Origin: Nitrospirota bacterium
GTDB lineage: Bacteria; NPL-UPA2; JAADIA01
Reading direction: 5' to 3'
DNA length: 19,632 nt
Assembly: GCA_013151555.1 (NCBI GenBank)
Contig: JAADIA010000007.1
Span: 1 to 19,632 of the forward strand
In this document: piece after piece, positions 12,144 to 14,824 of the stretch
How positions within the stretch are numbered: position 1 is the stretch's first letter
Layout: every line of letters begins with the position of its first letter
The notes under the pieces: model-generated
Seen by the model: the letters and a program-made list of their open reading frames with translations, nothing else
What the model was told of the DNA's origin: nothing
The model's database searches: none
Translations under genes and position numbers: made by a program

Positions 12144-14189
<2,046 letters not shown>

Positions 14190-14196
14190 CTCTGCG

Positions 14197-14225
14197 TTGT
14201 AGTGGTCGAGCTTGCTCGACATAAT
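14197..14225 (+). promoter_or_regulatory. Weak possible promoter for the structured leader
   Basis: TTGTAG at 14197-14202 and CATAAT at 14220-14225 are 17 bases apart. The -10 box is a good match (five of six) but the -35 box is poor (three of six). The palindrome at 14205-14220 would fill the spacer. If real, transcription would start near 14232, just before the tandem hairpin module. Confidence 0.28.
14205..14220. repeat. Palindrome GTCGAGCTTGCTCGAC
   Basis: GTCGAG and CTCGAC form a six-base-pair stem with loop CTTG. It shares the ten-base centre GAGCTTGCTC with the hairpin at 10094-10123. It lies 16 bases after the ligA stop and has no following T-tract. Confidence 0.65.
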
Positions 14226-14243
14226 AGTACGTATGTTGTAGAT

Positions 14244-14353
14244 GTATCCCGCTTTGGGGGATATGCGAAAATTCTCTACGATAATTTTTTGGCATCTTCT
14301 CTGGTATGGGTTAATTCGCACTTATTGTCCGCCTTGGGTGGGCAATGTGCTCA
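14244..14353 (+). ncRNA. Structured RNA-like module, copy 1
   Basis: This unannotated element has three helices. A helper hairpin pairs GTATCCC 14244-14250 with GGGATAT 14258-14264. Hairpin A pairs GAAAATT 14267-14273 with AATTTTT 14283-14289 around loop CTCTACGAT. Hairpin B follows the box GTTAATTC: GCAC 14318-14321 pairs with GTGC 14347-14350, then a TT bulge, then ten more pairs (14324-14333 with 14337-14346) closed by loop TTG. It ends in GTGCTCA (14347-14353). The strand is assumed from the downstream gene. I know of no named family with these boxes. Confidence 0.6.
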
Positions 14354-14357
14354 CTCA

Positions 14358-14453
14358 CTTGCTTAAACAAGGGGAAATTCTCTGCGATAATTTCCCCTTA
14401 AGCTGCGGAGTTAATTCGCACTTATTACTTAGTTTCACTAAGTAATGTGCTCA
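14358..14453 (+). ncRNA. Structured RNA-like module, copy 2
   Basis: This is the second copy of the module. A short CTTG/CAAG hairpin at 14358-14371 overlaps the base of hairpin A. Hairpin A is a perfect 11-bp stem (14369-14379 with 14389-14399) around loop CTCTGCGAT, which differs from copy 1 in one base. GTTAATTCGCAC recurs at 14410-14421, exactly 100 bases after copy 1. Hairpin B keeps the GCAC/GTGC clamp and TT bulge, but its upper stem is a different sequence (ATTACTTAG with CTAAGTAAT) and still pairs fully. GTGCTCA at 14447-14453 ends six bases before the Shine-Dalgarno of the next gene. Confidence 0.62.
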
Positions 14454-14470
14454 TTAAAAGGAGGGTGGAG

Positions 14471-14824
14471 ATGTATGGTTTATACTTTCCTCAAAACGGA
14501 CAGTCTGCCGGTATTGATAAATCTGCACGAGCAGAAGCCCGGCGGGCAAATGCGGAGAGTCTTTACCTTGAGCATCAAGTAGAGAGGCTTTTGATGATTA
14601 CCGAGGCCTTATGGGAGATGGTGAAAGAGCAACATGAATATACGGATGAGGAGTTGGCAACCCGGGTTCAAAATATTGATTTGCGGGATGGAGTGCTGGA
14701 TGGAAAAGTAGCTGCCAAGAGTAAAGTTGACACTTGCGCATCTTGCAAACGGAAACTCTCCCGCCGGCATACTATATGCATCTATTGTGGAGCCCCTGTA
14801 AAACGAGGGGTTTTTGAAAGGTAA
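14471..14824 (+). CDS. Small conserved protein with C-terminal zinc ribbon
   Basis: This 117-aa soluble protein has an N-terminal helical region rich in Ala, Arg and Glu (residues about 17-65, with ARAEARRANAESLYLEHQVE, probably a coiled coil) and a C-terminal CxxC-x10-CxxC zinc ribbon (CASCKRKLSRRHTICIYCG). I recognise the general layout of helical region, then ALWE, then zinc ribbon from hypothetical proteins in other bacteria, but know no function. The start is ATG 14471, with a perfect AGGAGG at 14459-14464 six bases upstream. An upstream GTG at 14447 in the same frame is part of the structured module and should not be used. The location behind that leader suggests control at RNA level. 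Confidence 0.85.
   Translation: MYGLYFPQNGQSAGIDKSARAEARRANAESLYLEHQVERLLMITEALWEMVKEQHEYTDEELATRVQNIDLRDGVLDGKVAAKSKVDTCASCKRKLSRRHTICIYCGAPVKRGVFER

Follow-up and report, generated by a model that had tools for sequence, protein, structure and literature searches.

A structured, covarying repeat element, apparently undescribed, in the leaders of unrelated genes of a Nitrospirota bacterium and of lineages in other phyla

The intergenic space between ligA and a zinc-ribbon gene

The window, as we call the whole stretch of 19,632 nucleotides analysed here (Nitrospirota bacterium, assembly GCA_013151555.1, contig JAADIA010000007.1), contains ligA followed on the same strand by a small zinc-ribbon gene, whose product gave a weak match to the Pfam family DZR, under the family cut-off. 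The space between ligA and the Shine-Dalgarno sequence (SD) of the small gene is occupied by two tandem units (Table 1). Each unit corresponds to the right half of the element described below and consists of hairpin A and hairpin R, the latter also called hairpin B. Copies were searched for by BLASTN and by two covariance models, R1 (hairpins A and B) and R2 (hairpin B alone); in the own genome, R2 matched hairpin B of copy 1 at C58:14315-14353. The small hairpin to the left of copy 1 is possibly a decayed left hairpin (hairpin L), a putative homology. The 286-nt leader folded with −98.8 kcal/mol, compared to −72.6 ± 4.5 kcal/mol for shuffles (z = −5.9).

Table 1. Positions of features in the window between ligA and the zinc-ribbon gene.
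Feature	Positions	Strand	Basis
Stop codon of ligA	14187–14189	+	ORF 12162–14189; intergenic space starts here
Left part of intergenic space, with small hairpin TCGAGC-TT-GCTCGA	14190–14246	+	Sequence, fold
Copy 1 (5' copy, diverged; type-I hairpin A + hairpin B)	14247–14352	+	R1 match, 40.7 bits, E 1.1e-7
Hairpin B of copy 1 (TAATTC, clamp GCAC/GTGC, TT bulge, CCGCC-type inner stem)	14312–14350	+	Sequence
Copy 2 (complete type-II element)	14353–14461	+	R1 match, 129.2 bits, E 2.8e-29
Hairpin A of copy 2	14353–14411	+	Folds of all copies; pair counts on alignment A1
Hairpin B (hairpin R) of copy 2	14412–14456	+	R2 match, 73.4 bits; pair counts on alignment A3
Shine-Dalgarno AAGGAGGG	14458–14465	+	Sequence; directly 3' of hairpin B, likewise in most other copies
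Downstream gene, 117 aa, C-terminal CxxC..CxxC zinc ribbon	14471–14824	+	ORF

An initial annotation, made from the letters alone, had described a tandem two-hairpin module with shared boxes and compensatory stem changes. The boxes were found as reported: GTTAATTCGCAC at 14310 and 14410 and GTGCTCA at 14347 and 14447, in both cases exactly 100 nucleotides apart, and the hairpin A loops CTCTACGAT and CTCTGCGAT. A repeat search also recovered the direct repeats. In the upper stem of hairpin B, pairs 27-43, 29-41, 30-40 and 32-38 (last two digits of the positions) were altered on both sides, as was pair 33-37. These changes are real, but they hardly represent several independent substitutions. The two stems belong to two different recurring palindromes, the CCGCCTNAGGCGG type and the CACTTAG..CTAAGTG type, and since each of them occurs many times in the genome, the window copies probably differ by one stem swap. 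Independent covariation is visible only in the wider family, not between the two window copies. An outer closing stem of hairpin B, formed by TAAT (14412–14415) and ATTA (14453–14456) around a TC/TC loop, had been missed; it is found in copy 2 and not in copy 1. Inside this stem, hairpin B of copy 2 has the GCAC/GTGC clamp, a 2-nt bulge and an inner stem of the CACTTAG type. Hairpin A of the same copy has the stems ACTC/GAGT, GCTTA/TAAGC and AGGGGAAATT/AATTTCCCCT, with the loop CTCTGCGAT at 14380–14388. The statement that no known family has these boxes agrees with the Rfam search, which gave 0 matches in the window at gathering scores (best sub-threshold E 1.5, opposite strand). No description of the element was found in the open-access literature.

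Copies, architecture and distribution of the element

The box GTTAATTCGCAC occurs 19 times in the 1.81-Mb genome of the window (G000) and its backward control 0 times; therefore, the boxes of the window are not due to chance. This genome yielded about 33 right ends that are complete, plus about 10 internal copies; several are arranged in tandem arrays. According to the contexts, which were read by eye, 31 of the 33 right ends immediately precede a gene start in sense orientation, mostly at a distance of 5–20 nt. One exception (C44:6417) is located 3' of rplQ and 5' of a terminator-like hairpin. The other (C55:20533) has its right end turned towards the neighbouring gene upstream of ribH and resembles a left end of this element. 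Downstream genes were yajC, MTHFR, rpsK, rpmA, ribH, nagB, PIN/TRAM, bifunctional nuclease, and radical-SAM methylthiotransferase genes. Further ones were PPDK, pgeF, groEL, hisS, peptidylprolyl isomerase, acyl-CoA dehydrogenase, amaP, and LysM genes, and others were read from the sequence. A regulon of co-functional genes was rejected, because the downstream genes have no common function. Tandem riboswitches or a dedicated protein-binding leader of the zinc-ribbon gene, which the initial annotation had considered, are not supported, given the presence of the element before about 30 functionally unrelated genes, as well as a tmRNA copy in a relative, presence/absence polymorphism, and homogenisation within genomes, all described below.

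Several copies of this genome had individual features. In three of them (L079, L146, L148), hairpins A and B were separated by an inserted double hairpin, identical in all three and composed of CCCCTAGAAATTGCTAAAAGCAATTTCAGGG and then a CCTGG..AATTCTTC..AATTTCTCAGG hairpin. The hflX frame 3' of the element at L007:1502-1600 (contig C32) seems to begin at ATT, with a weak SD nearby and no ATG, GTG, or TTG. The NifU-like gene 3' of another copy (L035, contig C8) is apparently frameshifted after 28 codons (assembly error or decay).

The consensus of hairpin B is XAATTC-NNNN-NN-inner stem-NNNN-TCATTX, followed by the SD. It comprises an XAAT/ATTX closing stem, TC opposite TC, a 4-bp clamp of any sequence, a 2-nt bulge, and an inner stem often with ACTTA. 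In alignment A3 (50 distinct hairpins from six genomes), 97.2% of cells were paired, and 15 of 18 pairs had double-sided changes. Double-change cells numbered 190 vs. 52.9 ± 9.1 in shuffles, and covariation was 0.542 vs. 0.176; the signal was lost (≤0.11) when the partners were slid. The foot XAATTC was present in 50/50 hairpins, with a variable closing pair (T-A, C-G, A-T). One row of alignment A1 contains two wrong bases; A3 and model R2, which carry the conclusions, were assembled exclusively from references to the sequences. Hairpin A was variable, with two types in the genome of the window and another type in G005. It contained nested extra hairpins, and a 30-nt inner hairpin was present or absent between orthologous copies. 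The existence of homologues and the strong covariation bear out the part of the initial annotation that postulated a selected structure with conserved unpaired boxes in a pre-SD leader. The element is a structured, covarying DNA/RNA family, which is apparently undescribed.

Within the phylum of the window's genome (nine genomes), families f1, f2, and f4 carried the element, and f3 and f5 lacked it. The R2 scan of 386 genomes of many phyla revealed it in ten, namely six of this phylum and G093, G233, G215, and G292. The latter represent three lineages, G093 and G233 being of one genus. An intact form was found in G093 and G215, where two inverted imperfect hairpins make up one unit, TNAATGAG - hairpin L - CCCC.. 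arms - hairpin R - CTCATTNA, with TNAATGAG and CTCATTNA as terminal inverted repeats. Hairpin L is the mirror image of hairpin B, with GA opposite GA. In these two genomes, hairpin L starts at the upstream stop codon (S11-like, fabG-like, pyrH, and others), and hairpin R extends up to the SD of the next gene (rpsD, acpP, frr, rplT, and others). The left end is degenerate or missing in many copies of G000 and G005, and most copies of these genomes are right halves only. The tsf copy of G093 and G233 is a 5' leader, since it is located between a promoter-like sequence (TTGACA-17-TAGAAT/TAAAAT) and the SD. Loci common over larger distances were ribH (three families) and yacL (two families), as well as nagB, acpP, and mlaD by inspection.

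Turnover between genomes, candidate mobilising genes and level of selection

Around an anti-sigma-antagonist-like gene, G005 and G007 are 93–95% identical, and the element is present in G005 only; G007 has a different 50-nt spacer, and the SD AAAGGAGG is common to both. The pyrH-frr junction has the element in G093 and not in G233, whereas tsf has it in both. These orthologous tsf copies carry arms of each genome's own type; like the copies of G005, they show hairpin A or arms uniform within a genome and different between genomes. This pattern resembles concerted evolution, for which copying or conversion within each genome is the best explanation. The two sister-species comparisons revealed no clean target-site duplication, and both empty sites carry other short hairpins and so are not clean. 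The element-less site of G007 (L233, C37:1153-1197) holds a different short palindrome, CGCAGGCTTTAGCCTGCG; in L101 of G005, a palindrome similar to it precedes the element. One copy of G005 (L159:1523-1660, contig C2) abuts the 5' end of the tmRNA gene detected by ARAGORN.

Two rules of placement were considered and rejected. SD-targeted insertion with SD duplication, suggested by GGAG-like left flanks in G005, is not supported, since the left flanks in other genomes are stop codons or a promoter region and an SD is missing at some right ends (argH, left-end copies). As a general rule, transcription starting where the element begins does not hold either: it was seen at tsf, and some copies of G005 hint at it, but many others are internal to operons.

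In a search of 13 genomes, Y1_Tnp genes occurred in some genomes with the element and in some without it; G000, G004, G005, G093, G215, G233, and G292 had them. The scan of 22 Y1 loci, with flanks of up to 1.5 kb, revealed no hairpin. G001 (90% complete) had 10 copies of the element and no Y1_Tnp, and G002 had six Y1 genes and no element. A transposase with the same ends as the element was not found. In G215 (C74:15087-15430, minus strand; L257/L299), an intact ORF of an 84-aa GIY-YIG nuclease lies inside an element, between arms ACCCAGCACTAATTTTAT and their complement, upstream of an alanine-dehydrogenase-like gene (ald). In G000 (C9:2984-3332; L285), a GIY-YIG ORF without its own stop crosses hairpin A and ends in hairpin B of an element preceding the radical-SAM methylthiotransferase gene. 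Other small GIY-YIG genes had no hairpin, and the association was thus seen in 2 of about 16 small genes inspected. We regard it as a lead to the mobilising machinery, not proof. Another GIY-YIG ORF, in G093 (L301, C122:40135-40420), has inverted arms ACCCAGCACCTC/GAGGTGCTGGGT at its two ends and no end hairpins.

If selection acted on the sense RNA, G-U should outnumber A-C in stems. Hairpin R had 8 G-U vs. 11 A-C, and hairpins R and A together had 25 vs. 15. The sense strand was on average 2–3 kcal/mol less stable than the complement. RNA-level selection was not demonstrated, because there was no clear G-U excess and the sense strand was the less stable one. These data would fit equally well with selection on single-stranded DNA, whichever the strand, as in mobile palindromes.

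Interpretation and comparison with known systems

On balance, we lean towards a dispersed, non-autonomous, MITE/REPIN-like mobile element living as an untranslated leader or intercistronic spacer of mRNAs. Intact copies are inverted repeats that start with hairpin L, located at the stop codon of the preceding gene or close to the transcription start, continue with genome-specific arms, and close with hairpin R, whose foot abuts the next SD. The end hairpins may be recognised in single-stranded form by a moving or copying machinery. Copies would spread within one genome, recombine with each other, and persist only where the stop codon and SD stay intact, so that they would be transcribed; once transcribed, they may modulate the stability or translation of the adjoining cistron. 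This reading is favoured by the abundance of right ends and internal copies before unrelated genes, by the structure being kept while the sequence changes, by the intact stop-to-SD inverted repeats of G093 and G215, and by presence/absence at orthologous sites together with homogeneity within genomes. Tandem duplication, nested hairpins, and the GIY-YIG ORFs inside one element (G215) or running into one (G000) point in the same direction, as do the tmRNA and rplQ copies, which fit no translation-control role. G-U is not above A-C in hairpin R, and the sense strand folds less stably than the complement, which would be expected if selection did not act on the sense RNA alone. The initial annotation had named homologues confined to mobile-element ends unrelated to transcription as evidence against it; this applies in part, since the element itself has the shape of a mobile inverted repeat, although it is clearly tied to transcription units.

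Against the mobile reading, the mobilising enzyme was not found, the GIY-YIG link concerns few of the genes inspected, and neither a clean target-site duplication nor a clean empty site was seen. Loci common across families, ribH in three of them, fit retention for function, and G-U exceeds A-C once hairpin A is counted. In addition, the copies lie almost only upstream of starts and in sense, whereas parasitic repeats such as BOX, RUP, and SPRITE of Streptococcus pneumoniae favour regions downstream of genes (PMC3049150). Nothing else about the element is as surprising as this opposite preference, and no other argument speaks as strongly for a role of position and perhaps of function. A bolder form of the mobile reading, which we hold to be rather doubtful, is a new class of selfish elements. 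Its full-length form would consist of conserved end hairpins, recognised in the single-stranded state, with a gene for a small GIY-YIG nuclease between them, would insert specifically from stop to SD, and would have spread through operons of several lineages without gene breakage, becoming the standard leader of dozens of housekeeping mRNAs.

The main rival is a class of cis-acting regulatory RNA leaders, which is possible with a distinctly smaller probability than the mobile element. Here, a trans factor (a protein or a ribosomal component) would bind hairpin R through the AAUUC..UCAUU box, the UC/UC loop, and the 2-nt bulge and would control translation or stability of many housekeeping mRNAs, while ordinary recombination would account for the spread. 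The sense orientation of 31/33 right ends, their fixed position before the SD, the conserved unpaired boxes with strong covariation across phyla, the tsf copy behind its promoter-like sequence, and the common loci ribH, yacL, nagB, acpP, and mlaD all agree with such leaders. They are harder to reconcile with the lack of a common function of the genes, the copies before tmRNA and after rplQ, the differences in presence between sister species, the genome-specific, homogenised arms, the left hairpin at stop codons, and hairpin R without a G-U excess.

It is quite unlikely that the family is of the REP/REPIN type moved by a RAYT (Y1 tyrosine transposase), in which AAT of the 5' foot would serve as the guide and ATT would be the site of cleavage, on the pattern of IS200/IS605. 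The inverted doublets of imperfect hairpins and the covarying foot (T-A, C-G, A-T) resemble this type, and Y1_Tnp genes occur in the genomes listed above. However, REPINs cluster at their RAYT genes (PMC3116915), whereas 0/22 Y1 loci had a hairpin, Y1_Tnp and element were dissociated in G001 and G002, and YAATTC is conserved at the 5' foot in place of a GTAG or CGTC tag. We therefore do not take the element for a RAYT-linked REP. It is very improbable that the repeats are dispersed intrinsic terminators or promoters: hairpin A contains a weak promoter-like TAAACA-16-GATAAT, and the window has a single weak match to a terminator, but both were at or near shuffle background, the SD and not a T tract follows hairpin R, and GATAAT lies in paired structure and is not kept in other lineages. 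Chance folding or an assembly artefact has practically no probability and is already refuted, since independent copies in 10 genomes of several phyla have the same covarying architecture, even though only draft contigs were available and short repeats can be mis-assembled.

The element appears to be an undescribed structured element, absent from Rfam, with dozens of copies in some genomes and common to lineages of different phyla. Its niche, at intercistronic junctions and on the side of genes where translation is initiated, is one that parasitic repeats normally avoid. If mobile, it is an example of a palindromic repeat colonising operons harmlessly and supplying leaders; if regulatory, it would represent a class of RNAs broadly linked to translation. 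Both readings can be tested with the covariance models and gene lists.

Like REPINs and REP-BIMEs (PMC3116915), the element is dispersed, extragenic, many-copy, and non-autonomous and forms inverted doublets of imperfect hairpins. It differs in the foot YAATTC/TCATTR, compared to the GTAG or CGTC tag of REPs, in hairpins located away from Y1 transposase genes, and in the strong tie to the stop-to-SD interval in sense. With BOX of S. pneumoniae (PMC3049150), it shares a modular palindromic organisation, variable inner modules, nesting, tandem copies, co-transcription, folding in leaders, and a possibly parasitic nature. No sequence relation was noted, and the element lies before starts and across phyla, whereas BOX, RUP, and SPRITE are mostly downstream of genes. 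The Correia/NEMIS and ERIC MITEs (PMC2229807, PMC2649163) are likewise inverted repeats of about 100–200 bp transcribed with neighbouring genes, and effects on mRNA processing have been reported for them. They have terminal inverted repeats, target-site duplications, and TA ends, whereas no duplication was found for the element in the two sister-species comparisons. Riboswitches, ribosomal-protein leaders, and T-box leaders (Rfam) are also structured leaders ending at the SD. In contrast to them, the element has no Rfam match and no common pathway, also precedes tmRNA, and varies in presence between sister species; according to the best reading of these data, it is not a classical riboswitch.
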